A stretch of DNA of 47,037 nt from an uncultured Clostridia bacterium (lineage in GTDB: Bacteria > Bacillota > Clostridia > Lachnospirales > Lachnospiraceae), in contig CAMOXU010000006.1 in the NCBI GenBank assembly GCA_946629525.1, positions 1-47,037 of the forward strand. The letters are read 5' to 3'. The translations under genes were made by a program, and so were the position numbers. A model generated the notes under the pieces. The model was not told where the DNA came from. It searched no databases and saw nothing but the letters and a program-made list of their open reading frames with translations. Positions 13,654 through 45,084 of this stretch are shown in pieces; positions within the stretch are counted from its first letter, which is position 1; each line of letters begins with the position of its first letter.

Positions 13654-13688
13654 ATAGTGCCTCAACATTTCCTGCAGGGGGAAAAAGT

Positions 13689-16403
13689 ATGGATGCGATT
13701 GAGAAAATAAAAGATTTCTGGCCGGAATGGACCATTGAGGGACCGCTCGGGAGAGGCTCATACGGAAAAGTGTACAGCGCAGCCAGATCCGACGCCGGCA
13801 AGAAGTATTATTCCGCGATCAAAGTGATGACGATCCCCGGAGGGGAGGAAGAAATCGATCAGGTCCGGGCCGAGGGTCTTTCCGAACAGTCGGTGCGGGA
13901 ATATTTCCGGGAGATCGTTCAGGGGTGTATCCAGGAAATCTCGATGATGATGGATTACCGCGGAACGGCAAATATCGTGAATGTCGAGGACTATAAGGTC
14001 ATCGAGCATACGGATTCCATCGGCTGGGATATCTTTATCCGGATGGAGCGGCTGATCTGCCTCAAGGAGATCATGAAGAACCGGCAGCTTGCGGAGGAGG
14101 AGATCATAAGCCTCGGCATCGATATCAGCACCGCTCTGATCGACTGCCAGATGGATGGCGTGATCCACAGGGATATCAAGCCGGCCAATATCTTCCTTCA
14201 TCCGAAGACCGGAGCCTATAAGCTCGGCGACTTCGGTATCGCGACCCGCATGAGCAGGGCGGACCGGGGAATGTCCTGCAAGGGGACGTATGATTACATG
14301 GCCCCGGAGATCTTTTCATCCGACAAGTATGACCAGACGGTAGATATTTATGCCCTGGGCCTTGTCCTTTACCGGCTCTGCAACGAGAACAAAGGGCCTT
14401 TTATTGATCTCAGCACAGGGACGCTGCGCCCTTCAGATGCGGAGCGCGCGCACGGTCTGCGCCTCTCCGGGAGAGAACTTCCGGCCCCGGCTCACGCATC
14501 GGCGGAGCTGGCGCGGATCATCGGGAGGGCGGTGCGGTTCAGGCCGGAAGAGCGCTATCAGACTGCAAGGCAGATGAAGGATGCTCTGGAGGAGCTGAAG
14601 CTTCAGAGGAAGCAGGCGAAAGCCTGGGCGGAGAGGGTGGAGCAGACCGCGCCTTTCGCTTCGGATGAGGATGTCACGGAGATACTCACTTATGTGAGCT
14701 CCGAGAGCGGGAAGACGGGAAGTCCGATGTCAGGATACCGGAAGCCCGGGAATCAGCCCGCGGCGAGCCAGACGTCGGGGTACCAGATGCCCGGAAATCA
14801 GCCCGCGGCGAGCCAGACGTCGGGGTACCAGATGCCCGGGAATCAGCCCGCGGTGAACCAGATGTCGGGATACCAGATGCCCGGGAATCAGCCCGCGGCG
14901 AGCCAGATGTCGGGATACCAGATGTCCGGGAATCAGCCCGCGGCGAGCCAGATGTCAGGGTATCAGATGCCCGGAAATCAGGACCGGACGAGTCCGATGT
15001 CGGGATATCAGAACCCGGCAGGTCAGAACACACAGAGCCGGGATCCACAGGGCAGACCTTCACAGGGATTCTATGAACCGCAGCCGGGGACCCAGGGATC
15101 CGGTAACGGAAGAAATGACTCTGTACAGACTCCTTATATCCCTCCGGCACAGGTCCGGACTTCCGGAGGAACGGGACGAAGACAGCGGGAGGGCGGAGAT
15201 GGCCGGGGAGAAGATTCGTCTCAGTCCGGAAAAACACACGGAACGCTCTTCGCTGCGCTTCTTGGGGCAGCTTTCGGCCTTCTCATTATTTTCGCGGTCG
15301 TGTTCGTCTTCCGGGACAGAGTCGGCAGTCTGCTCCGCGGGGAAAGCGGCACAGCCTCTTCGCAGGCGGAATCCTCCGCGAAGGGAGAGAAGAAGGACGA
15401 TGGAAAGGCGGAATCCTCGGGCAAAAAGAGTGAATCTGCAAATACGGACAGCGAATCCGGAGATACGGACAGTAAGCCCGCCGGAACGGACAGCACATCC
15501 TCCGGGGAGAGTGCAGAAGCCGGGGAAAAGTTCATTTCCCTGAAGGAAATCGAGAAGGTGAACCCCGAGGTGACGCCGACAAGTCTTGTCTATCTTGATT
15601 CGGCGAAAGACAATTTCGGGACGACGTACAAGAGTGCCATCGCAGGCGGAACGTCCGAGATGGAGAACGCGGACGAGTATATACTGGACGGAAAATACAG
15701 ATCGATCGCCGGCCGTGTCGTTATGAATTATGACACGAGGGCCAACGTCGGGAAGGATACTTACGTCCGGATCTACGGAGACGGAAATCTCCTCTGGGAG
15801 TCGGGACGCGTCACAAGGGGATTTGTCCCGGAGGATTTCCAGGTGGATATCACCGGGGTCAGCAGAATGAAGCTGACGATCCAGGGATGCAACTTTATCC
15901 GACTCGTCGACTGTGTGATCAGTGAGGAGGAAAAGATCACCGGGAATTCGACGGCGGAAGGAATCATCGACAATATCGTTTCCGGAGATCATGCGGAGAT
16001 CAAAGATCTCGACTGGTACAGCTCTTCCATGCAGCTTTCGCCGTCGGAGGGCGGGATCGTATTCTACGGGAGCGCCGTCGACAATAACGGGACGGTCTAC
16101 AATTCGAGCTCATTCGGCGGAAGAGCGTCTGACACGGAGAACTGGAACTCCTACAAGATCAGCGGAGCCTACTCGTCCATCACGGGCAAGGTCATCCTGA
16201 ACAACGCTTACAGCGATATTGTCTCGGAAAATACACAGTTCCGGATCTACGCCGACGGGGAGGTCGTCTATGAGTCCCTGTCGGTCACCGCGGGGCGCGG
16301 GCCTCAGGAATTTAATGTGAGCCTGGAAGGCGTCGAGGATCTGCGCCTCGGCGTGGTCGGCGCCAACTACATGAGGGTAGTTGACTGCACACTGAATAAA
16401 TGA
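13689..16403 (+). CDS. Ser/Thr protein kinase with extracellular NPCBM domains
   Basis: The protein has 904 residues from ATG 13689, preceded by AGGGGG. The longer frame (from 13527) would translate the repeat element and is rejected. The kinase domain (about 14-290) has GRGSYGKVY, Lys45, HRDIKPAN (160-167), DFG (181-183) and a complete set of catalytic residues. A linker (about 341-440) holds about six 15-residue repeats of the SGYQMPGNQPAA type. One membrane helix lies at about 518-540, followed by a Ser/Asp/Lys stretch. The outer part carries two related domains (about 615-748 and 772-904) that look like NPCBM carbohydrate-binding modules: YLDSAKDNFG, VRIYGDG, LVDCVISEE, and in copy two FRIYADGE and VVDCTLNK. 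This replaces the PASTA sensors of classic cell-wall kinases and suggests glycan sensing. Confidence 0.85.
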   Translation: MDAIEKIKDFWPEWTIEGPLGRGSYGKVYSAARSDAGKKYYSAIKVMTIPGGEEEIDQVRAEGLSEQSVREYFREIVQGCIQEISMMMDYRGTANIVNVEDYKVIEHTDSIGWDIFIRMERLICLKEIMKNRQLAEEEIISLGIDISTALIDCQMDGVIHRDIKPANIFLHPKTGAYKLGDFGIATRMSRADRGMSCKGTYDYMAPEIFSSDKYDQTVDIYALGLVLYRLCNENKGPFIDLSTGTLRPSDAERAHGLRLSGRELPAPAHASAELARIIGRAVRFRPEERYQTARQMKDALEELKLQRKQAKAWAERVEQTAPFASDEDVTEILTYVSSESGKTGSPMSGYRKPGNQPAASQTSGYQMPGNQPAASQTSGYQMPGNQPAVNQMSGYQMPGNQPAASQMSGYQMSGNQPAASQMSGYQMPGNQDRTSPMSGYQNPAGQNTQSRDPQGRPSQGFYEPQPGTQGSGNGRNDSVQTPYIPPAQVRTSGGTGRRQREGGDGRGEDSSQSGKTHGTLFAALLGAAFGLLIIFAVVFVFRDRVGSLLRGESGTASSQAESSAKGEKKDDGKAESSGKKSESANTDSESGDTDSKPAGTDSTSSGESAEAGEKFISLKEIEKVNPEVTPTSLVYLDSAKDNFGTTYKSAIAGGTSEMENADEYILDGKYRSIAGRVVMNYDTRANVGKDTYVRIYGDGNLLWESGRVTRGFVPEDFQVDITGVSRMKLTIQGCNFIRLVDCVISEEEKITGNSTAEGIIDNIVSGDHAEIKDLDWYSSSMQLSPSEGGIVFYGSAVDNNGTVYNSSSFGGRASDTENWNSYKISGAYSSITGKVILNNAYSDIVSENTQFRIYADGEVVYESLSVTAGRGPQEFNVSLEGVEDLRLGVVGANYMRVVDCTLNK

Positions 16404-17562: not shown

Positions 17563-19119
17563 TTATCTCCTCATCCCACTGTATTTCTGAATGAAATAAT
17601 CCGCCATTCCGTCGCCGCCCTCGTTCTTGCGGTTGATCCGCTTCACGATTCCCTCGAGCGATTTGGTATCGAAATAACTGTAAGCCTCACGGACCGATCC
17701 GAAATACGCCAGATGTCCGCATTCATCACTTCCCTTGGCGAGGACCATGATCTTGTCGAAGAAATCAGGGGTCCGGTCGGGGGCGTGGGAAATGACGATG
17801 ACGATCTTTCCGTCGTCAGCGATCGTCCGGAGGTTGGTCATGAGCGTTGTCGCCATGCCGCCGTCCAGACCGGAATCGGGCTCATCGAGGAAGAAGAGGA
17901 CCGGGTCCGCGACATACTCGACTGCGATGCTGAGACGCTTCCGCTGGCCGCCGCTGAGCTTGTTCACGAGGTGATTCTGCAGGGTCTCAAGACCCATTTT
18001 GTTGACGACCTGGGCAACGCGCGCGTCGCGCTGCGCCTGTGTCGTCCCCTTGCCGAGACGGAGCCTTGCCGCGTCGCGGAGCGTATCCGACACGCGGTCT
18101 TCCCCGCGCAGCAGATCCTGCTGGGGAACGAAGCCCATCTTATCTTTCATTGACGCGTAATCCGCGTAGACGTCGGTCCTGCCGTACATGATCCTGCCGT
18201 TGGCTTTCTCGTAGCCCATGACGGCGTTCATGAAGGTGGTCTTGCCGGCACCGGAGCCGCCGAGGACGAGCACCATCTCTCCGGGGTTGATCGTCATATT
18301 GATGTCGCGCAGAAGTGTGAGCTTTCTGCCCTTTACCATAACGCTCCGCTCGACGATCTGTATATTCAGAGAGTCGCTCGACATGGCGCCGCTCGACATG
18401 TGGTTCCTGTCTCTTCTGCCTTCGAGCTGTACGCTGTCGTCCCCTGATGAGTAGCTGGGGCCGGAAGGCATCTGATAGATCAGACGGTCGATGGAATAGA
18501 TAAAGTGAATGTTATTGATCCGGATCGCGTCGCCCGGCCGGAGGAAGATCGGGTTTGTCAGGCGGATGTCATTGACATAGACGCCGTTCCTGCTGTTGCG
18601 GTCCGCCAGGGCCCAGCGGCCGTTGTGCCGGAAGAGAACGGCATGCAGTCTGGAGATGCCCTGATCCTGGAACACAAGCCCGCTGTTCGGGTTGCGGCCG
18701 ATATCGATCTGGTTCACATTTACGAGGGAAATGACCTGCCATTTATAATATTCCGGATAGTCCAGGGCGAAGATCAGTGTGGTGAATTTCGCCGGATCCC
18801 GGGAAGAATACACTCTCAGGATGTCCCCGTTCTTCAGCTGCTGCGGGGCGTTCGGATCGAGCTTTCTGTTGGCGTACCAGGTGCCGTTCGTGCTGTTCAG
18901 GTCTCTGTAGAATACGCGGCCGGAGACGAGCTCGAATGAACCGTGCCTGCGGGATACGTAGCGCATGTCCACGCCGATATCGGGGCTGCCCGATTCGGTG
19001 ATCCTGCCGAAGACCGAATTGCGGTTCAGGACATATTCATGCACAGCGCCGTTGCATACGACGAAGACCTTCGGCACGAGCTTTCTGGGCGCTACATTGA
19101 TTGTTTCTTCGAAGTTCAT
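17563..19119 (-). CDS. FHA-FHA-ABC transporter ATPase
   Basis: The protein has 518 residues from ATG 19119-19117, where AAGGA sits at the right distance and the upstream gene stops 4 nt before. FHA domain 1 (about 15-90) has VFGRI, SRRHGSFEL and LNSTNGTW. FHA domain 2 (about 120-200) has IDIGRNPNSG, ISRLHAVL and NSRNGVYVN. The ABC domain (about 255-490) has Walker A GGSGAGKT with Lys293, signature LSGGQRKR and Walker B FFLDEPDSGLDG. This arrangement equals mycobacterial Rv1747, whose FHA domains bind phosphothreonines made by PknF, except that the membrane domain is a separate gene here. It implies kinase control of export. Confidence 0.93.
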   Translation of the reverse strand: MNFEETINVAPRKLVPKVFVVCNGAVHEYVLNRNSVFGRITESGSPDIGVDMRYVSRRHGSFELVSGRVFYRDLNSTNGTWYANRKLDPNAPQQLKNGDILRVYSSRDPAKFTTLIFALDYPEYYKWQVISLVNVNQIDIGRNPNSGLVFQDQGISRLHAVLFRHNGRWALADRNSRNGVYVNDIRLTNPIFLRPGDAIRINNIHFIYSIDRLIYQMPSGPSYSSGDDSVQLEGRRDRNHMSSGAMSSDSLNIQIVERSVMVKGRKLTLLRDINMTINPGEMVLVLGGSGAGKTTFMNAVMGYEKANGRIMYGRTDVYADYASMKDKMGFVPQQDLLRGEDRVSDTLRDAARLRLGKGTTQAQRDARVAQVVNKMGLETLQNHLVNKLSGGQRKRLSIAVEYVADPVLFFLDEPDSGLDGGMATTLMTNLRTIADDGKIVIVISHAPDRTPDFFDKIMVLAKGSDECGHLAYFGSVREAYSYFDTKSLEGIVKRINRKNEGGDGMADYFIQKYSGMRR

Positions 19120-19123
19120 ATTC

Positions 19124-20191
19124 TCATCCTTTCCAGTCGCTAATTGGGGTCCAGTCAATATCGTCATAATCTTTGGAGTTTTCCATGATCCCGTAGGTCA
19201 CGGCGGTGTACTTCTCCTCCGAGACGGATTCTTCCTCCTCGTCGCCTTCGCGGACCGTGTAGGCATCGTCCTCGCCGTCCTCAAGATCCGGTCTCCTTCT
19301 GATCTCCATGAAGGAAGTCGTCGTGATCATCCGCGGATTCAGTACATCGAGATCCATCATGCGGACATCACTGTCCGGATCCCAGTCTGCCGTGTAGAGG
19401 AGATTGATCCACTCCTCCTCGTCCGCATCATCCTTCCCGTCGTCTTTATCCTCTTTTTTCCCCTTGTCGTCTTTCTTGTCGTCCTTCTTGTCGTCCTTCT
19501 CCGAAGAATCGGTACTTTCATCCGACTTTCCTTCGGAATCCGAATCCGTGTCGTCAGATTCGTCGTCATCTTTAAGGTAGCTAATCAGCCGGAGATTGAA
19601 GGATTTCGAGGGGTACTGATCGAAGATCCGCTTCGCGGTCTTTGTCTGGTCCGGAGACTGCAGATCGACCTCGATCCCGACAAGATCGATCACTTTGTAT
19701 CCGTTCCTGTCAGCGTTCGCGATGACGAGCTCCGGGAAGCCGTCGTCCGCGAAATCGACGAAGGCGTAGGAGAGATTCTTCGGGATCCCGAGCCCGGATT
19801 TTGTCATGTTCGGGTTGATCTTCACGTCGTCATAATCGTCGAAATCGTCTTTCCAGGCCTGCCTGTACGCGTCCAGTATCTCCCGGTAGATATCCTCCAC
19901 CTCTTCGTCGGTGAGGTCGTCGAGCGACATGAGCATCTGATAGGCCTGCCCGCCTGCGGCTCCCTCCGCACTCATCTGCGCTTCTCCGGTTTTCTCTTCG
20001 GATTCCGTATCTTCGGAATCGCTGAAGGAGGAGAACTCCGTCTTCTCCTCTTTTGACTCCGTATCCTTATCCCTGTCGAGACGCATGAACAATGTTATGA
20101 AAAATGCAGTAATGAGGGAAGTCAGAATACACAGGCCGACGATGCCGGCTGCGATCAGAGGTTTGTTGATCTGTGGATTTCTGTCAGACAT
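19124..20191 (-). CDS. Single-pass membrane protein, acidic, unknown function
   Basis: The protein has 355 residues from ATG 20191-20189, behind GGGAGG. One membrane helix (about 11-34) follows a short cytoplasmic tail. The outside part is Glu/Ser-rich, then DDLTDEEVEDIYREILDAYRQAW. A beta segment, YAFVDFADDGFPELVIAN, resembles FG-GAP/VCBS-like Asp-rich calcium loops seen in clostridial surface lipoproteins. A very acidic Asp/Lys/Ser tract interrupts the domain at about 195-245. It is first in the operon with the FHA-ABC exporter, so it may be an accessory or substrate-binding component. No family is assigned. Confidence 0.75.
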   Translation of the reverse strand: MSDRNPQINKPLIAAGIVGLCILTSLITAFFITLFMRLDRDKDTESKEEKTEFSSFSDSEDTESEEKTGEAQMSAEGAAGGQAYQMLMSLDDLTDEEVEDIYREILDAYRQAWKDDFDDYDDVKINPNMTKSGLGIPKNLSYAFVDFADDGFPELVIANADRNGYKVIDLVGIEVDLQSPDQTKTAKRIFDQYPSKSFNLRLISYLKDDDESDDTDSDSEGKSDESTDSSEKDDKKDDKKDDKGKKEDKDDGKDDADEEEWINLLYTADWDPDSDVRMMDLDVLNPRMITTTSFMEIRRRPDLEDGEDDAYTVREGDEEEESVSEEKYTAVTYGIMENSKDYDDIDWTPISDWKG

Positions 20192-21129: not shown

Positions 21130-23325
21130 ATGGTATATGACACGATCCCAAAGGGGGCTGTCATCAGGGACAGATATGTTGTACGGGGAGTCATCGGAAA
21201 GGGCGGCGGAGGCATCGTCTACCGCGCATTTGACCGCAATCTTCAGTTCGATGTTGTTCTGAAGCAGATCAGGGAGGACGTGACGTCCCTTCTTGACAGC
21301 CGGGCGGAGGTCGACATCTTAAAGCAGCTGAAGCACGAACGGCTGCCGAAGGTCCTTGATTTCTTCGAATATGACGGCAGGCTCTTTACGAGCATGGATT
21401 TCATCAGGGGAATTGATCTGAATACAGCCCTCAAGACACAGGGCCGTTTTCTTCAGGGCCAGGTGCTTCGATGGGCGCAGGAGCTCTCGGATGCGCTTGC
21501 CTATCTGCACAGTCAGAGGCCGCCGGTCATTCACAGTGATATCAAGCCGGGAAATATCATGTATGACTCGAATACCGACGGAGTGACGCTGATCGATTTC
21601 AACATTTCCCTTGCGTTCAGCAGGAGCAAGCTCGGCACGACCTGGATCACGCCCGGGTACTCACCGCCCGAGCAGTATCACAGCCTGAGCGATTATTACG
21701 ATTCACTGGAGAAGATCGGCTATCGCTCCGGCGGGCAGCGGTCCGGCTCATATCCCACGGGCGGACGGAATACGGCTAATCCCGGGAATCCGAACCGGCA
21801 GCCGGGAATATACGACCGCTATACGCCGCCGATCGTTGCGCAGACTGTCGGAAAGGGGGTCGACGCGAGGTCCGACGTATACAGCTTCGGGGTGACCATT
21901 TACCACCTGCTGACAGGCGTAAAACCGGCTCCCGACTTCGCGGACATCATACCGATCAGCGAGTTCGATATTGATCTTGAGCCTGCATTCGCCTTCATCA
22001 TTGAAAAATGCATGGCGCTCGACCCGAATGAACGCTACCCGGACGGGATCGCCCTCAACAAGGCGCTCCGCAATATTTACAAGCTGGACGACGATTACAA
22101 GGAGTTCATAAAGCGGGAGAGGAGAAGAAGGCTTCTGTGCGGGCTTCTCATAGGATTCGGCGCCGCGATGATTGCATCGGGCTTTTACCTGGTCAATTCG
22201 ACGAACGGGAGCACGTACAACGGGATCGTCGACGAGGCCTGCGTCCTTGCCGACAACGGGGAATACCCGGAGGCTCTGGACGCTCTCGAGGATGCGATGG
22301 ACATTCTTCCGGGGCGGATCGACGCGTATGTCGAGAAAGCCAGGACCCAGTACCGCTCCGGCGATTTTGACGGGGCGATCAGGACCGTCAATGAGACGGA
22401 GGCAAATGAAGAGATAAAGAAGAGAAGATCCGACGCCTCCCTCTGGGGAGACCTGTATTATATCGCCGGCGATTCCTTCCTTGAAAAAAATGACTATTCG
22501 AATGCGAATAAGTCATTTAAGAAGGCCATCGGGGAGTACGACGGCAACAGTCTGTATTACAGAGAGAGGGCGGTCGCGCTGGCAAGGGGCGGAAATGCGG
22601 ATGAGGCGGAGAGTGTCCTTCAGGACGCGAAGGAAATGCAGCTCGGAGAGGATTCCGCCCGCTATGTTGAGGCGGAGATCGCCGTCGCAAGAGGGGAGGA
22701 CGACGAGGCCGTCGGGATATTTCAGGAAGTCCTCGATACCACGTCCGACGACGAGCTGGCTTCCCGCTCGGTCCTCATGATCTCCGGAATTTACGGGAAG
22801 AACGGCGACTACGACAAAAAGATCGACTTCCTGAACGGATATGTCGAAAATGACCGCTTCGGAACGGAGATGCAGATGCGTCTCTCCCGCGAGCTTGCCA
22901 ATGCGTGGATCCTCAAGGGAAATTCGAAGGCGTCCGACGCGGATGCGCTTGCGGAATGCAGTCAGCATGCGCTCGACGAGCTGTTAAAGATATACGATTA
23001 CAATAATTCCACCGGAACGATCGGCGACCTGGAGACGATCTCGAAGCTCTATCAGAATATCGGGGATCTGGACAGGAGCAGGGCATTTGCAGACCAGATG
23101 ATCTCGGATTATCCGGAGAGCTATGCCGGCTATAAGCGGAAAGCTTTCGTCCTCCTCTATATAGAGTCGGGGAAGGCCGAGAACATGAGAAGCTACGCCG
23201 AATTCAAGGTGAATTACGACAAGGCGGAGGAGCTCTTCGCGAAGGAGAAGGATCTGTCCGATCCTGAGATGGAGACGCTTAAGAAGGAGCACGATGATCT
23301 TGTGAAAGGGGGGTGGCTTGCATGA
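21130..23325 (+). CDS. Ser/Thr kinase with membrane helix and extracellular TPR repeats
   Basis: The protein has 731 residues; the AGGGG ribosome site is close to the ATG. The kinase domain (about 14-310) has GKGGGG, Lys45 in VVLKQ, HSDIKPGN (135-142, HRD changed to HSD), DFN (156-158, DFG changed to DFN) and GYSPPEQYHSL. The ATP Lys and both Asp remain, so activity is plausible but not certain. A membrane helix at about 335-355 is followed by about 375 extracellular residues of TPR-like helical repeats (for example GEYPEALDALEDAM, GNADEAESVLQDAKE). The order kinase fold, membrane helix, helical outer domain mirrors EssB/YukC of type VII systems, whose kinase fold is dead. Confidence 0.88.
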   Translation: MVYDTIPKGAVIRDRYVVRGVIGKGGGGIVYRAFDRNLQFDVVLKQIREDVTSLLDSRAEVDILKQLKHERLPKVLDFFEYDGRLFTSMDFIRGIDLNTALKTQGRFLQGQVLRWAQELSDALAYLHSQRPPVIHSDIKPGNIMYDSNTDGVTLIDFNISLAFSRSKLGTTWITPGYSPPEQYHSLSDYYDSLEKIGYRSGGQRSGSYPTGGRNTANPGNPNRQPGIYDRYTPPIVAQTVGKGVDARSDVYSFGVTIYHLLTGVKPAPDFADIIPISEFDIDLEPAFAFIIEKCMALDPNERYPDGIALNKALRNIYKLDDDYKEFIKRERRRRLLCGLLIGFGAAMIASGFYLVNSTNGSTYNGIVDEACVLADNGEYPEALDALEDAMDILPGRIDAYVEKARTQYRSGDFDGAIRTVNETEANEEIKKRRSDASLWGDLYYIAGDSFLEKNDYSNANKSFKKAIGEYDGNSLYYRERAVALARGGNADEAESVLQDAKEMQLGEDSARYVEAEIAVARGEDDEAVGIFQEVLDTTSDDELASRSVLMISGIYGKNGDYDKKIDFLNGYVENDRFGTEMQMRLSRELANAWILKGNSKASDADALAECSQHALDELLKIYDYNNSTGTIGDLETISKLYQNIGDLDRSRAFADQMISDYPESYAGYKRKAFVLLYIESGKAENMRSYAEFKVNYDKAEELFAKEKDLSDPEMETLKKEHDDLVKGGWLA

Positions 23326-23483: not shown

Positions 23484-23516
23484 ACCATTCGTCATTTTAA
23501 AGTGACCATTCGTCGG
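23484..23516 (+). promoter_or_regulatory. LytTR-type direct repeats upstream of the first WXG100 gene
   Basis: ACCATTCGTC occurs at 23484-23493 and again at 23505-23514, exactly 21 bp apart (two helical turns). LytTR regulators bind paired direct repeats with this spacing, and the repeat is one base from ACCGTTCGTC, the known AlgR (LytTR) site. The operon encodes a LytTR protein at 29709. Confidence 0.75.
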
Positions 23517-23541
23517 ATTCCTGCAAAGCGCGCGGAGGATA

Positions 23542-23550
23542 TGTTATCCT
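23542..23550 (+). promoter_or_regulatory. Extended -10 of the WXG100-EssC transcript
   Basis: TGTTATCCT (TG-N-TATCCT) begins 27 bp after the second LytTR repeat. This is a suitable place for an activator to reach polymerase. The -35 is non-consensus, as expected for an activated promoter. Confidence 0.5.
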
Positions 23551-23626: not shown

Positions 23627-23920
23627 ATGGCTGAGTACAAAGTAACTTCTTCTGAACTGAGAGCAAAGGCAGCGGAGCTTAACGGATACATTTCACAGTT
23701 CTCGGTGGAAATGAACAATCTGATCGCCACGGAGAACACACTGGCCACGACCTATGAGGGCGATGCGCAGAAGGCTTTCCACAATAATTTCACCACACTG
23801 CAGAGCGAGATGAATACATTCAAGACTGTCATGCAGGATTACGTGACGCAGCTCGAGGTGGCAGCCCAGGGATATGAGGCAGCCGAGCAGCAGGCGCTTT
23901 CGATCGCGCAGTCGAAATAA
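23627..23920 (+). CDS. WXG100-family protein (YEG variant)
   Basis: The protein has 97 residues, with GGAGG upstream. It is a helical hairpin of the ESAT-6/EsxA size; the turn motif is TTYEGDAQ, with Tyr in place of the Trp of WXG. It begins VTSSELRAKAAELNGYI and ends AAEQQALSIAQSK. Such proteins are secreted by the EssC machine as folded dimers. It is the first gene after the LytTR-site promoter, separated from the next WXG100 gene by a 26-bp tandem array. Confidence 0.9.
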   Translation: MAEYKVTSSELRAKAAELNGYISQFSVEMNNLIATENTLATTYEGDAQKAFHNNFTTLQSEMNTFKTVMQDYVTQLEVAAQGYEAAEQQALSIAQSK

Positions 23921-24145: not shown

Positions 24146-24457
24146 ATGGCTACTATTCGTGTAACAGCAACCGAGTTAAATAACGCGTCCCAGGCATTTC
24201 TTACAGCAGGCGGAAATATCAAAAATCTGACGACCAACATGCTCAATATCGCGCAGGAGCTCAGCACTACCTGGTCCGGCGATGCGGCAAATGCCTACTA
24301 TACAAAGCTCAAGAGCACAGAGACAGGCATGACCCAGATGTACAACAAGATCGTTAAGAGCTCCACGAACCTGAGCGAGATGGCGACGATCTACGAGAAC
24401 GCAGAGCGCACGAACGTTGAGCTTTCCGGCAGCCTGAAGACAGCTGAATTCGTATGA
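24146..24457 (+). CDS. WXG100-family protein (WSG)
   Basis: The protein has 103 residues, with AAAGGAG upstream. It carries a canonical WXG turn, TTWSGDAANAYY, between two helices, plus a C-terminal YENAERTNVE stretch close to the usual YxxxD/E secretion signal. It is probably an EssC substrate and structural partner, perhaps forming a heterodimer with the product of 23627. It lies upstream of essC and is likely on the same transcript. Confidence 0.95.
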   Translation: MATIRVTATELNNASQAFLTAGGNIKNLTTNMLNIAQELSTTWSGDAANAYYTKLKSTETGMTQMYNKIVKSSTNLSEMATIYENAERTNVELSGSLKTAEFV

Positions 24458-24590
24458 TCCGGACGGCTCCGGCAGGCCGGAGGGATACAGGACGTACCGG
24501 AAGCCCTGCATCCGGTCCGAAAAATTGACAGAGAAAGAATAAGACACTGTATCCCCGGCGGAACCGTCCACCGGGGAGTCGGTGCGTTCA

Positions 24591-24655
24591 GGCAGTAATT
24601 CAGGTCTCGCCTGCGAGACCCGGCGCGGAATTCGCGTCAGCGCCAGCTGACATAA
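24591..24655 (-). repeat. Dispersed repeat family 2, copy C
   Basis: GGTCTCGC-CT-GCGAGACC (24603-24620), then GGCGCGG, then GTCAGC-GCCA-GCTGAC (24636-24651). It is the inverse orientation of copy B at 12408. It ends about 40 nt before essC. Confidence 0.6.
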
Positions 24656-24692: not shown

Positions 24693-27600
24693 ATGAGTAT
24701 CGTTTTGTCCATGTACAGTATGAGCGCGTTCCGTGAGGTGGTCCTCATGGATCGCGGAAATCCGAAGATGCAGATCATGATCGAGAAGAAGCTTTTCGGT
24801 CTGCGCAGAGATGTCCTCCTTCATCTGGAGAAGGACGAGAAGCGCGGGTGGTGGCTTCGTCCCGGCGACTATCGCGTGTCCTCGAATCAGAACCACCGTC
24901 CGCTCCCCGAAGGGGCTTTCATACGTGACGGGATCAGTCTGGATATAGAGGTCTCCGGGTCTCACTTTACCATGCTGGCCTATGAGCAGACGAACCCGTT
25001 CAACGTCTACCGCAAGTATCCGCTGGGGGCGAACGGCGTTATCACGGTGGGATCGCTCGAGAACAACGTGATCTGCTACGCGCTCGACAATCTGGTCACC
25101 CGCTATCCGCACTGCAAAATTGAGATCAGGAGCGGCAGCGCGTATATCACGGACTGCTCTACGAACGGTACCTACGTGAATTCACAGCGCATTGAAAAAA
25201 ATGCGCCGGTCCCCCTCCGCTTTGGCGACAGTATCCGGATCTTCAGGCTGAATATCATTTACCTCGGCAATATGATCGCCGTCCACGCCCGCGAGGGCTT
25301 TGAGGTGCGCAGGAGCCGCCTGAGTGCGGAGCAGATCGACCGGTTGTCGACTGCACCCGGGAAGACGAAGACGGCAGCGGTGACGGAATTCCACCGCGCG
25401 CCCCGGATCATGCCGGTCCTCCACACGGAGCCGGTCGAGATCGAAGCGCCTCCGAACCGGCAGGAGACCCCGAAGATGCCGCTTTTCATGCGGATCGGTC
25501 CCTCCTTTACCATGGCTCTCCCCATGCTCATCACTGCCTTTATGTCCATCGTGCTCTCGAACACGAGCGGAAACGGAGCAGGGCGGTCTGCCTTCATGTA
25601 CACCGGTATTGTCATGGCTCTGACGTCGGCTTCGGTCGGTGTCTTCTGGGCCATCAAGAACATGCGCTATCAGGAACGCCTGAACGCGGAAAATGAAGCC
25701 AACAGGGAGCGGCGCTACAAGAACTATCTGGCGGATATCTGGCGGGACCTTGAGGTCCGGTACGCAGATAACCAGAGAAATCTCAACGATTTTTATATCG
25801 ACGCGGAGAGCTGCTGCGAACTCAATGAAGATTCCGGGATCCTGTGGAACCGCAACGCGACACATCCGGACTTCATGAGCTACAGGATCGGAATGGGCAG
25901 CGTGGATTTCCAGGAGGAGATCAATATTCCGAAGGAGCGGCTCATGATGATCGACGATGAGCTGGCGGACCAGCCGAGACAGATCAGGGACCATTTTAAG
26001 AAGCTGACCAATGTCCCGGTCCTTCTGGATGTCCGAAAGGAGCACCTCATCGGCGTCGTCGGAAAAAAGAGCCGCAGTGAGGCGGTCGACGTTGTCCGCG
26101 CGCTGATCACGCAGATCGTGACGGCCAACTGTTATACGGATGTGAAGCTTGCCCTCATTTACGACGGGACGAGCGATATCGACCGGGATGCATGGAATTT
26201 CATGTACTGGTTCCCGCACGTCTGGTCGGAGGATCGCAAGATCCGCTATATCGCCACGAATCCGGATGAGACCGGAGACGTGTTCTACGCCCTTGCCCAG
26301 ATCTTCCGGAACCGGATGGAGGAGGAACGCCCGGGAAAGGATGGAATTGCGAAGCCCCAGTATATCATGATCGTCACGGATCCGCGACTGATCGAGGGGT
26401 CGATCATCGAGAACTTCGTGTTCGAGCGGAAGACGGATCTTGGGCTTTCCACGATCTTCCTCGCCGACAGGATGAAGAGCCTGCCCAACGATTGCGAGTG
26501 CATCGTGAACTGCGCCTATAACAGCATCACATACACACACGACCGGTTCGAGGACGGTCAGAAGGTCAGATTCGATGAGGTCGCTCCGGAGAGGGTGGCA
26601 AAGCTTGCCAAGACGCTCGGTAATATCCGCGTGACGGAGTCCGGCGAGGACGGTGAGATCCCGAACATGCTCTCCTTCTTCGACATGTACGGCGTGACGG
26701 TGCCTGAGGCCCTGAATGCCTCGGAGCGGTGGAATCTGTCGGATCCGGCGAGCTCCATGAAAGCGCTGGTCGGCTTTAAGGGAGGCAACCGGCCCTGCTA
26801 TCTTGACCTGCACGAGAAGTACCACGGCCCGCACGGCCTTGTCGCAGGTACGACCGGCTCGGGTAAATCCGAGACGCTGCAGACCTATATCCTCTCCCTG
26901 GCTGTCAACTACAGCCCGGAGGATGTGGGCTTCTTCATCATCGACTATAAGGGCGGCGGGATGGCCAATCTGTTCGAAGGCCTGCCGCATATGATCGGGG
27001 CGATCTCCAATCTCTCCGGAAATCAGGTCAACCGTGCCATGATCTCGATCAACAGCGAGATCCACCGCAGGCAGAGAGTCTTCGCCGAGTACGGCGTGAA
27101 CAGGATCGACGCCTATACCTCGCTCTACAAGGCGGGGGAGGCGGATGAGCCGATGCAGCACCTCCTCATCATTATCGATGAGTTCGCGGAGCTGAAGAGG
27201 GAGCAGCCGGAGTTCATGAAGGAGCTGATCTCCGTCGCACAGGTCGGCCGAAGCCTCGGCGTACACCTGATCCTCGCGACCCAGAGACCCTCCGGGACCG
27301 TCGACAGCAATATCTGGGCGAACTCCCGCTTCAAGCTCTGCCTCCGCGTTCAGAACAAGGAGGACTCCATGGAAATGCTGCACCGCACGGATGCCGCATT
27401 CCTCACCCAGACGGGCAGATGCTACATGCAGGTCGGCAACGACGAGATCTTCGAGCTCTTCCAGTCCGGGTGGTCCGGTGCGTCCTTTGACCGGGAGCTG
27501 GGCGGACGCAGCATCCTGATCGCGCAGATGCTCTCCGCATCCGGGAAGGTCGATCTGGCAGGAAATCATGCGAAGCTCCGGCTCAAGGAGGAGCAGAAAG

Positions 27601-29705
27601 TCAAGTGGATCGGCCAGCTCCTCGGGATCCTCGGACAGACGCAGAACGCGCTGTCGGAAAATGTCTGTGCGCCGGGCTTTGACTTTATGAGCCAGACCGA
27701 GTTCGCGGATCTCTTCTATGAGAAGGTACATGCGATTCAGCCGGATTACGAGAGAAATCAGTTCAATAATATGCGGATATCCGATTTTATTTCGGTTTAC
27801 CGTACACTCATCCTGCGCGGGGAATACACGGGCGATCCGAAGGCGGTCATCGCGGAGGCTGCCGCGCAGCGGAAGCACCTGCCGGAGCAGAAGGCCATGA
27901 CCCAGCTGCAGGCGGTCGTCGAGTATCTCTCCGCCGAGGCGGCGGAGAGCGGGATCCGGGAGGTCAGAAAGCTCTGGCTGCCGGTCCTCTCTGACAGGAT
28001 CTATCTGAGCGAACTGAAGAGCTTTACGGGCAGATGCTTTGACGGCAGGAACTGGCTGGCCGTTCCGAAGCGGTTCCGCCTGAGCGCAACGGTCGGATTC
28101 GGCGACGATCCCGAGAATCAGGCCCAGATGGACGTCGGAATCGATTTTTCGTCGGGAGGACACCACATGGTCTGCGGAACGGTCTCGACCGGAAAGTCCA
28201 CCTTCCTGCAGACGGCAGTCTTCTCGCTCTGCGCACACTATTCGCCGGAGCAGCTGAATGTCTATGCGCTTGATTTCAGCTCGCAGATGCTCACGGTGTT
28301 CGAGAATTCGGTGCACGTCGGCGGCATTCTCACCGACGCGGATACGGAGACGGACCGGATCGCGAAGTTCTTTACGCTGATGGGAAAGATCATTTCCGAG
28401 AGAAAGCGGCTCTTTAAGGGGACGAACTTTACGGATTACATCAACCATAACGGATGGACGATCCCGGCGATCCTCGTTGTGATCGACAATTACGGAAGCT
28501 TCCACGAGAAGACCGGGGAGACGTACGAGGGGATCATGAGCCAGCTGGTCAAGGAGGGCGTGGGATACGGTATATTCCTGCTGATCTCCGCGGGCGGTAT
28601 CGGGGCTAAGGAAGTCCCGACGAGGATGGCTGAGAACTTCCGCACGGGCATCTGTCTGGAAATGCAGGATGCCTACGCCTATGGCGAGATCCTCCACGTT
28701 CTGCGGCCGGAGGTGCTTCCGGAAGCGAACGTCAAGGGACGCGGCCTGATCGGGTACGGCAACAAGATCATCGAGTTCCAGACGGCGCTGGCCGCGGAGT
28801 CGGCGGAAGGACCGCTGCGGAACGACATGATCCGGGAGAAGATCGAGCGGATGAACAGGGCATGGAAGTCTCTTCCGGCCAGAAAGATCCCGTCGATCCC
28901 GGACAAGCCGGTGCGCGAGGAGTTCGTGAAGCTTCCCGATTACCGGAAGATGCTCGCGGATCCGCGCAGGCTTCCGGCGGCTTACAACGAGGAGGATGCG
29001 GAGATTTACGGACCGGACCTCTTCGAGCACTACATGTTCTTTGTCACCGGGACGAGGGGCAGCGGAAAGTCTGTCTGCATGAAGAATCTCATCCTGTCCG
29101 CGGAGGAGAGAAAAGAGACGAATCTGATCTTCGAGAACAGGGACAACACATTCGAAGCGATCTCGAAGGATCTCGGCATCCGCAGGGCCACTGACGGCGA
29201 GTCCACCTTTGAGCTCCTGAAGTACGTCTTTGAGGAAATGAAAAAACGCATCCCGATCAAGAAGAAATGTCTGGACGACAGACTTTCCGAGGAGGAGACC
29301 TTCAAGGCTGCGCTGGGAACTCAGAGGATCAATCTCTTTATCGGTGACCTGGGAAGCTTTATCCGCGAGGTCTATGACCCTGCCTCTCCGGCGGTGAACG
29401 GGAAGTCCGTCGTCGAGCTCATCGCAACGAAGGGACGTTTCTACAACGTTTATCTCTACGCGGAGATCAAGGATGCGGATCAGATGACGCTCATGTCGAA
29501 CCCCGTGGTCAGGGAAATGTGCGACGTGTGTGCCGGCGTTCGCTTCGGCGGCCGGTTGAATGATTCGAAGCAGAAGATGTTCGAATTTGCCAATGTCAGC
29601 TTCAGGGATGTGGGAAAGAGCCTGAAGCCGGGCATCGGAATCCTGCCTTCTGAGGATAAACAGGCAAAGATCGAAAAAATCGTTGTTCCGATGTATCGAG
29701 GTTGA
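24693..29705 (+). CDS. essC: Type VII secretion ATPase EssC (FHA-TM-FtsK/SpoIIIE x3)
   Basis: The protein has 1670 residues, with GGAGG upstream. The N-terminus has two FHA-like domains (about 1-90 and 95-190; the second with VITVGS, CKIEIRSGSAYI and STNGTYVN). Two membrane helices follow at about 270-290 and 299-320. Three P-loop domains come next: D1 Walker A GTTGSGKS at 719-726 with Walker B IIIDEFAEL (Asp829-Glu830) and ATQRPS; D2 Walker A GTVSTGKS at 1162-1169 with IDN; D3 Walker A GTRGSGKS at 1453-1460 with FIGDLG. Only D1 keeps the catalytic Glu, as in other EssC/EccC proteins. It is the motor that recognises and exports WXG100 proteins. It is somewhat longer than staphylococcal EssC. 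Confidence 0.97.
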   Translation: MSIVLSMYSMSAFREVVLMDRGNPKMQIMIEKKLFGLRRDVLLHLEKDEKRGWWLRPGDYRVSSNQNHRPLPEGAFIRDGISLDIEVSGSHFTMLAYEQTNPFNVYRKYPLGANGVITVGSLENNVICYALDNLVTRYPHCKIEIRSGSAYITDCSTNGTYVNSQRIEKNAPVPLRFGDSIRIFRLNIIYLGNMIAVHAREGFEVRRSRLSAEQIDRLSTAPGKTKTAAVTEFHRAPRIMPVLHTEPVEIEAPPNRQETPKMPLFMRIGPSFTMALPMLITAFMSIVLSNTSGNGAGRSAFMYTGIVMALTSASVGVFWAIKNMRYQERLNAENEANRERRYKNYLADIWRDLEVRYADNQRNLNDFYIDAESCCELNEDSGILWNRNATHPDFMSYRIGMGSVDFQEEINIPKERLMMIDDELADQPRQIRDHFKKLTNVPVLLDVRKEHLIGVVGKKSRSEAVDVVRALITQIVTANCYTDVKLALIYDGTSDIDRDAWNFMYWFPHVWSEDRKIRYIATNPDETGDVFYALAQIFRNRMEEERPGKDGIAKPQYIMIVTDPRLIEGSIIENFVFERKTDLGLSTIFLADRMKSLPNDCECIVNCAYNSITYTHDRFEDGQKVRFDEVAPERVAKLAKTLGNIRVTESGEDGEIPNMLSFFDMYGVTVPEALNASERWNLSDPASSMKALVGFKGGNRPCYLDLHEKYHGPHGLVAGTTGSGKSETLQTYILSLAVNYSPEDVGFFIIDYKGGGMANLFEGLPHMIGAISNLSGNQVNRAMISINSEIHRRQRVFAEYGVNRIDAYTSLYKAGEADEPMQHLLIIIDEFAELKREQPEFMKELISVAQVGRSLGVHLILATQRPSGTVDSNIWANSRFKLCLRVQNKEDSMEMLHRTDAAFLTQTGRCYMQVGNDEIFELFQSGWSGASFDRELGGRSILIAQMLSASGKVDLAGNHAKLRLKEEQKVKWIGQLLGILGQTQNALSENVCAPGFDFMSQTEFADLFYEKVHAIQPDYERNQFNNMRISDFISVYRTLILRGEYTGDPKAVIAEAAAQRKHLPEQKAMTQLQAVVEYLSAEAAESGIREVRKLWLPVLSDRIYLSELKSFTGRCFDGRNWLAVPKRFRLSATVGFGDDPENQAQMDVGIDFSSGGHHMVCGTVSTGKSTFLQTAVFSLCAHYSPEQLNVYALDFSSQMLTVFENSVHVGGILTDADTETDRIAKFFTLMGKIISERKRLFKGTNFTDYINHNGWTIPAILVVIDNYGSFHEKTGETYEGIMSQLVKEGVGYGIFLLISAGGIGAKEVPTRMAENFRTGICLEMQDAYAYGEILHVLRPEVLPEANVKGRGLIGYGNKIIEFQTALAAESAEGPLRNDMIREKIERMNRAWKSLPARKIPSIPDKPVREEFVKLPDYRKMLADPRRLPAAYNEEDAEIYGPDLFEHYMFFVTGTRGSGKSVCMKNLILSAEERKETNLIFENRDNTFEAISKDLGIRRATDGESTFELLKYVFEEMKKRIPIKKKCLDDRLSEEETFKAALGTQRINLFIGDLGSFIREVYDPASPAVNGKSVVELIATKGRFYNVYLYAEIKDADQMTLMSNPVVREMCDVCAGVRFGGRLNDSKQKMFEFANVSFRDVGKSLKPGIGILPSEDKQAKIEKIVVPMYRG

Positions 29706-29708
29706 CCA

Positions 29709-30419
29709 ATGATCCAGGTTGTTGCATATGACAGGAGGGCTGCGGAGCGTGAAGCGATCCGCAGCTCTCTCTGGAAAAAAATCGAAAGACTTCCCGAGGA
29801 GGACATGGAATTTCGTGAGGCCGGGAACTCTGCGGAGCTTCTTACCGTGATCGAAGAGCAGAGCATGCCGGATCTCCTGTATTATGAGTTCCTGAAAGGC
29901 CAGCCCGTCACGGAGCTCAGGGCCCTGCGGAAGCGGTGCGAGAATTCGCTGCTCATGCTGATCGCGGACGCGGCGGTGTCCCCTCTTGAATATCTGAAGC
30001 CGGGAATCGCTCCCGACTCTCTTTTGCTGCGCCCCTTTACAGGGGAAATGCTTTCCGAGATCAACGGAGAATTCGTGCAGACCCACCTCGACCGTACGGA
30101 GAAAGAGGACGGGGAGAAGTTCATGGTGGAGACGAAGAGCGGCAAGATCTTCCTGCCCTTCCCGAAAATCGTCTACTTTGAAGCCCGGGACAAAAAGCTT
30201 TTTGTGCGGACCGCGGACGAGGAATACCCCTTCTACGGGACGATCGACGCGCTCGGGGAGACACTCCCGGCGGGATTCCGGCGGTGCCATCGGAGCTATA
30301 TCATCAACACGGCAAAGATCACCCGGGTGGACTATACGTACAACGAGATCGAGATGGGAGACGGGATCGTTGTACCGGTCTCGAGACGCTATAAGAAGGA
30401 ATTCAGGGAGATCGGATGA
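29709..30419 (+). CDS. LytTR-family transcriptional regulator with degenerate receiver
   Basis: The protein has 236 residues and starts 3 nt after the essC stop. The first 120 residues are receiver-like (VVAYDRRAAEREAI, late LLLRPF) but the phospho-acceptor region reads DLLYYEFL, so the usual Asp appears lost. The C-terminus (about 133-236) is a LytTR DNA-binding domain: GKIFLPFPKIVYFEARDKK, RRCHRSYIINTAKI. Its likely targets are the ACCATTCGTC repeats at 23484 and 31457, giving an autoregulated secretion operon. Without the acceptor Asp, control may come from protein contacts rather than phosphorylation. No histidine kinase is nearby. Confidence 0.9.
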   Translation: MIQVVAYDRRAAEREAIRSSLWKKIERLPEEDMEFREAGNSAELLTVIEEQSMPDLLYYEFLKGQPVTELRALRKRCENSLLMLIADAAVSPLEYLKPGIAPDSLLLRPFTGEMLSEINGEFVQTHLDRTEKEDGEKFMVETKSGKIFLPFPKIVYFEARDKKLFVRTADEEYPFYGTIDALGETLPAGFRRCHRSYIINTAKITRVDYTYNEIEMGDGIVVPVSRRYKKEFREIG

Positions 30420-30442
30420 ACTGCCTTTATCGCGGAGGAAAC

Positions 30443-31090
30443 ATGGAGAGATCTTTATATCTGACAGAACATGAGCTTTATGTCCTGCTGCGTCTCGGCG
30501 GAGGACGCCCGGTGACCTGTTTTCCGGTCGGCGGCCCGGACAGTGCGGAGATGAGACAGACGCTTCTTTCCCTTTTCCGAAAGGGGATCGTGAAAAATGA
30601 AGGGGAGAAGTTTTCCCCTGCCGGCTTCTGGGGAGACGTCTTCCGCCGGCTCTTCGCCTCTCCGAGGCTCTACTGGCTGACGAATGCGGATGCTTCCGTG
30701 CCGGAGATCCTCATTTACGCCGGAGAAGCGTCCGGGAAGAATGTGATCCTTCTTGAAAATATCAGCGGACAGAATTCGGGGCGCTACCGGATCACGATGC
30801 TCCCGGAGGAAGAGCTCCCTGCATTTCTTACAGACAAGGGTGCGTTCCCGGAGATCCATCTGGAGGAGGAAGACCGGTATGAGGTCGAGAACACGCGCCT
30901 TCCGGATCCTCTTTCCGGAGAAGGGAAGAGAATCCTTACGATCCGGGAATTCACGAACGGGGCGGCGAAGGAGAGAAGGCAGATCCTTCTGGAACGCCGG
31001 GGTGCGCTCATCTGCTGCATTTACCGGGAAAACGGGATGCTCCGGACGGAAGCCGCCGTGAAGGGGATGATCTCACGGATCATCTGCTGA
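30443..31090 (+). CDS. Secretion-locus protein, DUF5081/EspG-like candidate
   Basis: The start is ambiguous. ATG 30416 overlaps the regulator stop (ATGA) and gives 224 residues; ATG 30443, behind GGAGG, gives 215. The text after MERSLYLTEHELYVLLRLGGG resembles the N-terminus of DUF5081/EspG-like proteins found beside Firmicutes WXG100 genes, which are suspected chaperones, but this is from memory of pattern only. There is no signal peptide or membrane helix, so it is probably cytoplasmic. Position between the regulator and the YukD gene supports a role in secretion. I am unsure of the family. Confidence 0.7.
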   Translation: MERSLYLTEHELYVLLRLGGGRPVTCFPVGGPDSAEMRQTLLSLFRKGIVKNEGEKFSPAGFWGDVFRRLFASPRLYWLTNADASVPEILIYAGEASGKNVILLENISGQNSGRYRITMLPEEELPAFLTDKGAFPEIHLEEEDRYEVENTRLPDPLSGEGKRILTIREFTNGAAKERRQILLERRGALICCIYRENGMLRTEAAVKGMISRIIC

Positions 31091-31183: not shown

Positions 31184-31432
31184 ATGATCGTAGTGAATAT
31201 TACCGTTCCCGGACTGGAGAACGTCTATAATATGAATATTGAGGAAGAAGTCACGGTGAAGGAGATCATTGAGGAGGTCTCCGAGCTGATCAGCCAGAAA
31301 GAGCACACGGAGCTTCGGGGGGAGATCAATGAGATGGTCCTCGGATCCAAAGACCTGGGGATCGTGCTGAGAAGAGACAGGAAGCTCAGTGACTACGGGA
31401 TCTGCACGGGAGCGGAGCTGATCCTGGTCTGA
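31184..31432 (+). CDS. esaB: YukD/EsaB-family ubiquitin-like protein
   Basis: The protein has 82 residues, with AAGGTGG upstream. The beta-grasp pattern is VNITVPGLENVYNMNI, then EVTVKEIIEEVSELI, then LRRDRKLSDYGICTGAELILV, which matches the YukD/EsaB family. In other type VII-b systems this small cytoplasmic protein is needed for secretion or its regulation. It lies immediately upstream of the second WXG100 group. Confidence 0.9.
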   Translation: MIVVNITVPGLENVYNMNIEEEVTVKEIIEEVSELISQKEHTELRGEINEMVLGSKDLGIVLRRDRKLSDYGICTGAELILV

Positions 31433-31434
31433 AC

Positions 31435-31508
31435 TGCCAAATATCAGATTTTGCTTACCATTCGTCGGAACCGGCGCATGAACAGAAGACGTTGGTGTAA
31501 ATTATAAT
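31435..31508 (+). promoter_or_regulatory. LytTR-like site and promoter for the second WXG100 group
   Basis: ACCATTCGTCGG at 31457-31468 matches the site at 23505-23516 for 12 of 12 bases. A weaker half-site lies exactly 21 bp upstream (31435-31445). A -10 follows as TATAAT at 31503-31508, or TAAATT at 31498. This suggests a second start point under the same regulator, inside the locus. Confidence 0.6.
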
Positions 31509-31539: not shown

Positions 31540-31881
31540 ATGAGAGTATATCCGGAAGTGATCATTGAAAAGAGCGGCGATCTGACCGCCGCCGCAAGGA
31601 AGCTGCGGACGGTCGGGGCTGATATAGGACGCGTCCGCAGTGCGCTCTCCGGACAGGAAGGACTTGGCAGCTGTCAGGATGCTCTGAGAGAAATGGAACA
31701 GGTGACGGAAGATCTTGTCGCGGATCTGGTCATGATGTCGGCGGCCCTTGAAGATATCGGTACGATGTATGTACAGTGCGATCAGGAGGCGGAACGGGAC
31801 ATCGAGGACGGAGCGGGAGCGCGGCCGGCCTACAGCAGAGTCCCTTCACTGACAGCCGTCAGCGATAACTTGAATTTCTGA
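31540..31881 (+). CDS. WXG100-like protein without Trp motif
   Basis: The protein has 113 residues. The N-terminal part is helical (DLTAAARKLRTVGADIGRVRSAL), the turn reads GLGSCQDAL with no Trp, and the second helix is MEQVTEDLVADLVMMSAALEDIGTMY. A short C-terminal tail follows. Size and context match TIGR04197/DUF3130-like small helical partners of type VII effectors. It is the first gene of the second WXG100 group. Confidence 0.75.
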   Translation: MRVYPEVIIEKSGDLTAAARKLRTVGADIGRVRSALSGQEGLGSCQDALREMEQVTEDLVADLVMMSAALEDIGTMYVQCDQEAERDIEDGAGARPAYSRVPSLTAVSDNLNF

Positions 31882-31908: not shown

Positions 31909-32208
31909 ATGAAGGTAATTGAGACGAATACGGATACCATGCAGAATGACGTGAGATCCATCGAGGCGATGCTCGGACAGCTTTCCGGGGATCTCAACAA
32001 TCTTGTATCCTGCGCGAACCGGATCGCGGCGATGTGGACGGGCGACGCGAAGGAAGTCTATGAAGCCGAGCTCATGGCGGAGCTGTCGGATCTTAACGAT
32101 CTGATCAAGACCGTGCAGGACCTGAATCTGGGGACGGACAGCGCCCGCGGGCGGTATGTGGAATGCGAGGCGAGTGTGGCAGGCATCATCGACTCGATCC
32201 GGGTGTAA
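31909..32208 (+). CDS. WXG100-family protein (WTG)
   Basis: The protein has 99 residues, with AGGAGAG upstream. The turn is AAMWTGDAKEVYEAEL between two helices, fully typical of the family. It ends in ASVAGIIDSIRV. It is probably secreted by EssC, perhaps as a dimer with a neighbouring family member. Confidence 0.92.
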   Translation: MKVIETNTDTMQNDVRSIEAMLGQLSGDLNNLVSCANRIAAMWTGDAKEVYEAELMAELSDLNDLIKTVQDLNLGTDSARGRYVECEASVAGIIDSIRV

Positions 32209-32305: not shown

Positions 32306-32623
32306 ATGGCAGGAATCGTTCTTTCCGTAAAGCCTGAGGAGCTTGAGGCTGAAGTGGGGAATATGAGTTCTTATCTGAGAACGTTGAAAATGCATTTCGA
32401 CGCGATCAGTGATACAATGAAGAATACAGGAAACTACTGGCACGGGGATGCCGGGGATGCAGACCGCATCGAATTTGAAACAGCCGGGCGCACGTTCGAG
32501 GCACTCTACAGGGAACTCGAGAAGCAGCCGAATAAGCTTCTTCAGATTGCAGGGATCTATAAGGGTACGGAGACGAATATCGATTCGATGAATGAAGCGC
32601 TCCGAACCGATTTCTTTGTATAA
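32306..32623 (+). CDS. WXG100-family protein (WHG)
   Basis: The protein has 105 residues, with GGAGG upstream. The turn is GNYWHGDAGDADRIEF, flanked by helices. The following gene starts 12 nt after its stop, so the two are likely translated together and may form a heterodimer. Confidence 0.92.
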   Translation: MAGIVLSVKPEELEAEVGNMSSYLRTLKMHFDAISDTMKNTGNYWHGDAGDADRIEFETAGRTFEALYRELEKQPNKLLQIAGIYKGTETNIDSMNEALRTDFFV

Positions 32624-45037: not shown

Positions 45038-45084
45038 AACCGCTATAGTAGGGAGTTATGCGGAATTTTGATGCAGAGGAAATT

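Follow-up and report, generated by a model that had tools for sequence, protein, structure and literature searches.

Genetic composition of the secretion locus

We analyzed a stretch of 47,037 nucleotides (here referred to as the window) that carries a type VII secretion locus on the (+) strand. A gene for a Ser/Thr kinase with TPRs (21130–23325; Pfam Pkinase, 7.2e-34) ends just upstream of a putative promoter, here named P1. The first gene after P1 encodes an EsxA-like WXG100 protein (23627–23920; Pfam WXG100, 3.1e-12), which is followed by a second WXG100 protein (24146–24457; 1.3e-10) and an EssC-type ATPase with an FHA domain (24693–29705; TIGR03928, 1034 bits; FHA, 6.7e-11). Next to essC lies the gene of a LytTR regulator of 236 aa with a degenerate receiver (29709–30419; Pfam LytTR, PF04397, 2.9e-24). 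The start codon of the following gene, which encodes a protein with an EspG-like chaperone fold (30416–31090), overlaps the LytTR stop codon. A YukD/EsaB-like protein (31184–31432; Pfam YukD, 8.1e-9) completes this group. Behind it a second putative promoter, P2, precedes a 113-aa ORF (31540–31881) and three WXG100-like genes (31909–32208, 32306–32623 and 32636–32965; Pfam WXG100, 1.2e-4, 3.7e-6 and 1.9e-4, respectively), two of which score under the Pfam curated cut-off. An ORF of about 114–134 aa was found at the place equivalent to the 113-aa ORF in many relatives.

The second WXG100 gene is flanked by gaps of 225 and 235 bp, for which a simple terminator scan listed no terminator on the (+) strand. 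Between this gene and essC we observed a stable RNA hairpin region (24458–24600, z -2.62), possibly an attenuator or processing site. With this hairpin region in between, read-through from P1 to the LytTR gene may be full or partial.

Further ORFs of the window include a second Ser/Thr kinase with NPCBM matches (13527–16403), an FHA-ABC protein on the (-) strand (17563–19167) and a DUF6382-FHA protein (45058–46272) resembling the TsxJ component of other T7SS subtypes. A frame of 1702 aa antisense to essC and LytTR (25182–30290, (-) strand) is probably an effect of base composition.

Paired repeats upstream of the WXG100 genes

The sequence-only reading that preceded this analysis had described a paired repeat at 21-bp spacing in front of the first WXG100 gene. 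Exact copies of ACCATTCGTC are indeed present at 23484–23493 and 23505–23514, both on the (+) strand and with a start-to-start pitch of 21 bp. They form the distal and the proximal half-site, the latter continuing with GGA, of the putative LytTR box of P1. The 27 bp that had been counted up to an extended -10 were found as well (23515–23541), followed by TGTTATCCT at 23542–23550. Its hexamer, TATCCT, starts at +40 from the start of the proximal half-site, agrees with TATAAT in 4 of 6 positions and is preceded by TG. The transcript of P1 is predicted to start near A23557, upstream of the WXG100 start codon at 23627.

A third exact copy of ACCATTCGTC is located upstream of the second WXG100 group, as had been noted, at 31457–31466 (+). 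The 12-mer that was said to recur there, ACCATTCGTCGG, is common to the copies at 23505 and 31457 but absent from the one at 23484. Overlooked before was a degenerate partner of the 31457 copy, GCCAAATATC at 31436–31445 (+), again at a pitch of 21 bp. The repeat differs by a single base from the AlgR core CCGTTCGTC given in PMC4064291, in line with the earlier statement; the term "AlgR-like" applies to these core letters and to nothing beyond them.

The two sites are not equal in strength. With a profile that was built without the window and its near relative L063 (see below), the proximal site of P1 reached 20.1 bits (E 2.5e-5 in the window), and that of P2 8.2 bits (E 0.14). The latter is less than the 9.2 bits of a probably meaningless match at 39156; this match and its partner at 39136 were rejected as a box, as the -10 is wrongly placed or missing and no suitable gene lies downstream. 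The candidate -10 of P2, TATAAT at 31503–31508 (+), starts at +46 instead of the usual +40/41. Since the region of this TATAAT shows a 10-of-12 match to sigma-70 promoters, P2 may depend less on the regulator. Due to the degenerate pair, the low score and the shifted -10 we consider P2 the weaker site, and its use less certain than that of P1. The proposed second promoter thus has a box pair of its own in front of the second WXG100 group, but a poor one.

To judge how unusual the repeat is, its copies were counted. On both strands of the window three exact 10-mers were found, where 0.087 are expected from base composition. Across the 2.73-Mb genome there are six copies, compared to three of a reversed control pattern, so that the single 10-mer is not rare genome-wide. 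However, half of the six copies are found within one 8-kb stretch of the locus, and the search for paired sites (9–13 bases between the copies) returned a single pair in this genome, the one at P1.

Exact letters are of little use for marking the box across the family. Of 299 family genomes, only the one studied here has the exact pair with 11 bases between the copies, because the letters drift between genera. We therefore dropped them and learned the motif from related loci instead. A generic listing of direct repeats was likewise set aside, as numerous AT-rich chance pairs were among the matches listed.

Conservation of the box in related loci

For the comparison 68 loci were collected: the window, 20 loci from family genomes (L043–L062) and 47 of 80 loci from a scan of named genomes (L063–L109); the scanned loci L110–L142 are outside all counts. 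Six duplicates with LytTR letters more than 0.93 alike were removed, leaving 62 loci. Another six (L104–L109) were excluded, five of them without an essC match upstream and one (L108) with essC and a low LytTR score. The resulting 56 loci, window included, are in many cases labelled Lachnospiraceae, and also Oscillospiraceae and others.

The near relative L063 (uncultured Lachnospiraceae, RUG13128), whose LytTR protein is 83% identical to that of the window, shows the conservation most directly. At its P1 the pair is kept as ACCATTCGTC and TCCATTCGTC with the pitch of 21 bp, followed by TGATATCTT, in a surrounding stretch that is 70% identical with gaps. At its P2 the proximal half-site reads ACCGTTCGTC, which is exactly the AlgR-type core, and the degenerate partner GCCAAATATC has letters identical to those in the window.

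A paired 13-mer model was learned by iteration and applied by leave-one-out against 100 shuffles per locus. A tandem box on the same strand (GYCRTTYRTCVGA) was found in 45 of 56 loci at p<=0.05 and in 42 at p<=0.02, with a small leak, as every round started from a matrix to which the left-out locus had contributed. The median score was 22.4 on the same strand and 13.9 on the opposite strand, and the (+) strand outscored the (-) strand in 47 of 56 loci. A pitch of 20–22 bp outscored other pitches in 42 of 56 loci. Among 74 sites, searched within this range of 20–22 bp only, the pitch was 21 bp in 58, 20 bp in 15 and 22 bp in one. The half-sites thus form imperfect direct repeats with a pitch of about two helical turns in front of putative promoters; for known LytTR proteins, binding to imperfect direct repeats separated by about 12 bp is described (PMC4064291).

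Eleven of the 56 loci had no significant box. Three of these (L048, L058 and L059) end before the expected promoter, the other eight do not. The best of the 100 shuffles per locus mostly reached 16–23 on the PWM scale, for which reason single weak sites prove little. Of the 35 loci in which yukD was matched, 28 have a box scoring at least 16 immediately after this gene; in 12 of 30 loci such a box lies 107–148 bp before the first WXG100 gene. Within 2.6 kb upstream of essC a box was present in 10 of 49 loci.

A repeat of this kind might also be a chance pair or a mobile or structural repeat without a regulatory role. In keeping with this, copies with one mismatch in the window are not above chance (7, compared to 3.73, sd 1.92, in shuffles); as 9 of 100 shuffles reach 7, we regard this count as uninformative. 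A chance origin is very improbable in view of the pair being kept in the diverged L063 promoter, the 45 of 56 loci in leave-one-out and the fixed distance to the -10 described below. The recurrence of sequence tag plus regulator gene in dozens of relatives from gut and rumen rather points to a dedicated on-switch for the secretion system.

Promoter layout

The -10 had no part in the training of the paired model and could be examined separately, at 72 sites that score at least 17 outside known genes. A hexamer that agrees with TATAAT in at least 5 of 6 positions starts at +40/41 from the proximal half-site start in 42 of the 72 sites, with a background of 0.475 per position (binomial about 1e-59). 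In these 42 sites a -35 signal was not found, the best match being 2.67 of 6 compared to 2.45 in shuffled sequences. TGn precedes the -10 in 20 of them, and in 34 an A is located 12 bp past the hexamer start.

A LytTR protein may also repress from some positions, as known for AgrA binding downstream of the bsaA promoter (PMC4227749), and the regulator could thus act on the box as a repressor. We think this improbable. The two half-sites are placed before the -10, at a fixed distance to it, and the -35 is missing, which is the usual layout for activation and suggests an activator-dependent promoter.

Association of the box with the LytTR gene

The LytTR gene at 29709–30419 is the only one that we found on its contig, in agreement with the claim of a sole LytTR gene in the window, and one of five in the genome. 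An essC match lies closely upstream of LytTR in 55 of the 56 orthologous loci. The distance between both matches is at most 341 bp in 54 loci and at most 704 bp in L061, where both matches are partial; in L073 it is 6.2 kb.

EssC (E<=1e-60) was detected in 74 of 299 family genomes. As controls served 20 essC loci without a LytTR match, five of them of the same EssC subtype (split profile match) and 15 of other subtypes. Two of the controls are on short contigs (L209 and L210), two look nearly identical (L212 and L213), and the sample is confounded by subtype. The paired model found 2 of these 20 loci at p<=0.05, neither among the five of the same subtype. Within these limits, boxes differ strongly in frequency between essC loci with and without LytTR (Fisher 3.5e-8).

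A profile (R1) was built from 58 of the 64 sites on our list. Both sites of the window and that of L063 were omitted deliberately; L090:18789, L097 and L103:11513 are also not included. With default filters the best R1 match in the 20 control loci scored 13.0 bits. R1 (E<=0.003) matched 17 of 22 genomes with a LytTR ortholog (E<1e-20) compared to 16 of 277 genomes without. Eleven of the 22 ortholog genomes had given no training site, and six of these, including the genome of the window, matched R1 (G000, G058, G134, G090, G188 and G092; Fisher 3.6e-5). The out-of-sample boxes of G058 (contig C23) and G090 (C95) lie directly before WXG100 operons and that of G188 within the T7SS locus, while the box of G134 (C4) runs off the contig and that of G092 (C376) has no clear gene.

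The earlier prediction that the operon's own LytTR protein reads LytTR-type repeats at more than one promoter is supported by the footprint in L063, the 45 of 56 loci, the fixed -10 and the scarcity of the box where the LytTR gene is missing. The autoregulation claimed along with it would follow from the gene order and is plausible for this locus, but it does not appear to be general, given the 10 of 49 loci with a box at most 2.6 kb before essC.

Boxes elsewhere in the genomes

The strongest R1 match in this genome (32.7 bits) belongs to an agr-like locus on contig C61 (7980–11996) with a LytTR response regulator, a GHKL kinase and AgrB. Here, the box GTCATTCGTC/GCAATTCGTC, followed by a -10, is divergent from the LytTR gene, whose receiver is recognised by Pfam. 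It precedes an 85-aa ORF and a 261-aa protein, the latter of which looks secreted by eye. With the best box of the genome next to a histidine kinase, AgrB and a recognisable receiver, this regulator or another LytTR protein might be the main reader of the boxes at the secretion locus. Quorum sensing would then control secretion, with the operon's own LytTR protein as a side player. We consider this unlikely, since the boxes track the operon LytTR gene: they do not exceed 13.0 bits in the 20 essC loci without it, even though at least seven of those genomes have other LytTR genes. In addition, three of the four exact or near-exact half-sites of P1 and P2 start with A, the half-sites of C61 with G.

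Another match of 22.5 bits lies at a zinc-ribbon/DUF898 gene on contig C2. On contig C88 (2391–4747, (-) strand) a box of 19.1 bits precedes genes for a lipoprotein, a 264-aa protein and a 288-aa protein. Judged by eye, the latter has a helical stretch at its N-terminus; its C-terminus resembles metallopeptidases (DUF6782, 1.9e-6). These genes may form a type VII effector operon outside the secretion locus, with the 288-aa protein as candidate secreted effector; P0002 and the 264-aa protein gave no alignment. Helical-hairpin-like ORFs (by eye) also follow boxes in two relatives (G137, C154; G166, C2). Matches on contigs C96, C41, C48 and C123 were rejected as boxes, being copies of one hairpin repeat. 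This near-identical repeat, ATCATAATTCGGCCGATAAATCGGCC..., is present in at least these four contigs (L156, L157, L159 and L160) and mimics the box.

In genomes without the T7SS regulator, boxes were found near ABC transporters or secreted proteins. As putative boxes precede secreted proteins and adjoin other LytTR systems, more than one LytTR regulator of the family uses this box. With similar boxes present at further LytTR loci, its letters alone do not tell which regulator it belongs to.

The LytTR regulator and its EspG-like neighbour

The model of the LytTR protein (AF2 pLDDT 90, pTM 0.61) consists of a receiver-like N-terminal domain and a LytTR domain; the C-terminal LytTR domain was present in 21 of 21 orthologs of set A1. 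Its best Foldseek match is full-length ComE (4cbv), and the fold of the LytTR domain was also matched by 3bs1 and 4xqn. AgrA, ComE and VirR are response regulators of two-component systems. The window protein shares the fold of the LytTR domain with them (Foldseek), but has a degenerate receiver. No histidine kinase was found among 30 window proteins, a subset of the window ORFs, scanned with Pfam.

The receiver is not a canonical two-component receiver. Pfam Response_reg was recognised in 3 of 21 orthologs. The full phosphorylation set of acidic pair, phospho-Asp, Thr/Ser and Lys was present in none of the 56 orthologs, L083 being unreadable there; the Asp is kept in 49, the Thr/Ser in 8, the Lys in 17 and both acids in 4. 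In the window protein the acidic pair reads D-R (one acid), the phospho-Asp is replaced by E, the Thr/Ser by A and the Lys by R. Since the canonical residues are missing, phosphorylation of the receiver in the usual way is unlikely, and the activity of the regulator probably depends on how much of it is present, or on a protein or ligand as partner, and not on a histidine kinase.

The neighbouring protein (30416–31090) has no Pfam or NCBIfam match and was revealed by fold search alone (AF2 pLDDT 88; Foldseek EspG3, E 4.8e-6, TM 0.57/0.49). An ORF of at least 150 aa follows LytTR in 51 of 56 loci and overlaps it in 41 of the 51. By sequence only 13 of the ORFs from other loci are recognisable from the window protein (E<0.001), and homology of the remaining ones therefore rests on position.

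It is tempting to speculate, although we hold it for a tentative and rather doubtful idea, that the pseudo-receiver binds the EspG-like chaperone, and that chaperone freed by export of WXG100 proteins or effectors switches on the secretion regulon including distant effector operons. If true, the regulator would be a phosphorylation-free response regulator with the secretion apparatus itself as input. Type III secretion has chaperone-coupled gene control, of which this would be the type VII counterpart.

The first base of the half-site varies with a C-terminal motif of the regulator. It is G in 97 of 104 cases with SRS-Y and A in 7 of 10 cases in which the motif is altered to SRR-Y or SRA-H. 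These cases come from few independent lineages, and the SRR locus L056 has no site above threshold. We take the SRS motif as a lead only, to a possible specificity determinant for this base.

Proposed mechanism and relation to known systems

Sequence analysis shows conserved repeats at a set distance from the -10 that go along with the LytTR gene, and a regulator whose receiver is degenerate. The repeats are quite likely the operator at which a dedicated LytTR protein activates this clostridial type VII secretion system. From these features we infer binding, activation, autoregulation and signal as follows. The LytTR protein encoded behind essC would bind two half-sites with the consensus GYCRTTYRTC[ACG]GA (ACCATTCGTC here), which are two helical turns apart and start at about -52 and -73. 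The bound protein would recruit RNA polymerase to promoters that lack a -35 but have a good -10, which is often extended. P1 (23484) would drive WXG1-WXG2-essC-LytTR-espG-like-yukD, the regulator itself included, and P2 (31436/31457), probably more weakly, the following WXG100 group. Abundance or a protein or ligand partner, as discussed above, would probably set the activity of the regulator.

Among the published systems that we compared, the gene content comes closest to that of the T7SSi of Vallitalea with its TsiN described by Garrett, Higginson and Palmer 2024 (PMC11217815), where TsiN was suggested as a possible cluster regulator. In both, an FHA-bearing EssC-type ATPase, a YukD-like protein, an EspG-like protein and a LytR-like regulator are found in one cluster. 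This comparison is one of gene content, and we refer to the regulator of the window as a LytTR regulator dedicated to a T7SSi-like system. In the accessible parts of that report T7SSi is described from Vallitalea only and without a binding site, regulon or receiver analysis. With the present 56 loci, such an arrangement is seen more widely, together with a predicted operator, the layout of its promoter and candidate members of a regulon.

AgrA, too, binds direct repeats that lie in front of the promoter (PMC4227749). In Pseudomonas aeruginosa the AlgR core, one letter off the window repeat and identical to the P2 half-site of L063, is found in a different site arrangement (PMC4064291). Expression of T7SSb is likewise controlled by transcription regulators in other bacteria: DegSU in B. 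subtilis, SaeRS, Agr and SigB in S. aureus and a GntR-family factor in E. faecalis (PMC10765036). As far as described there these are global systems, whereas the regulator of the window is encoded inside the secretion operon. Literature on type VII secretion or WXG100 together with LytTR, including PMC9239048, gave no paper on a link between the two by title or opening of the abstract; subscription papers were mostly outside this search, and we do not claim absence from print.

Apart from a few model Bacilli, little work has been devoted to how type VII secretion is regulated. With a dedicated regulator whose operator can be read, the regulon could be predicted from sequence, and candidate effector operons are already indicated on contig C88 of this genome and in the two relatives G137 and G166. 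Together with the overlapping EspG-like gene, the degenerate receiver makes it possible to test in common anaerobes of gut and rumen which signal activates the system.
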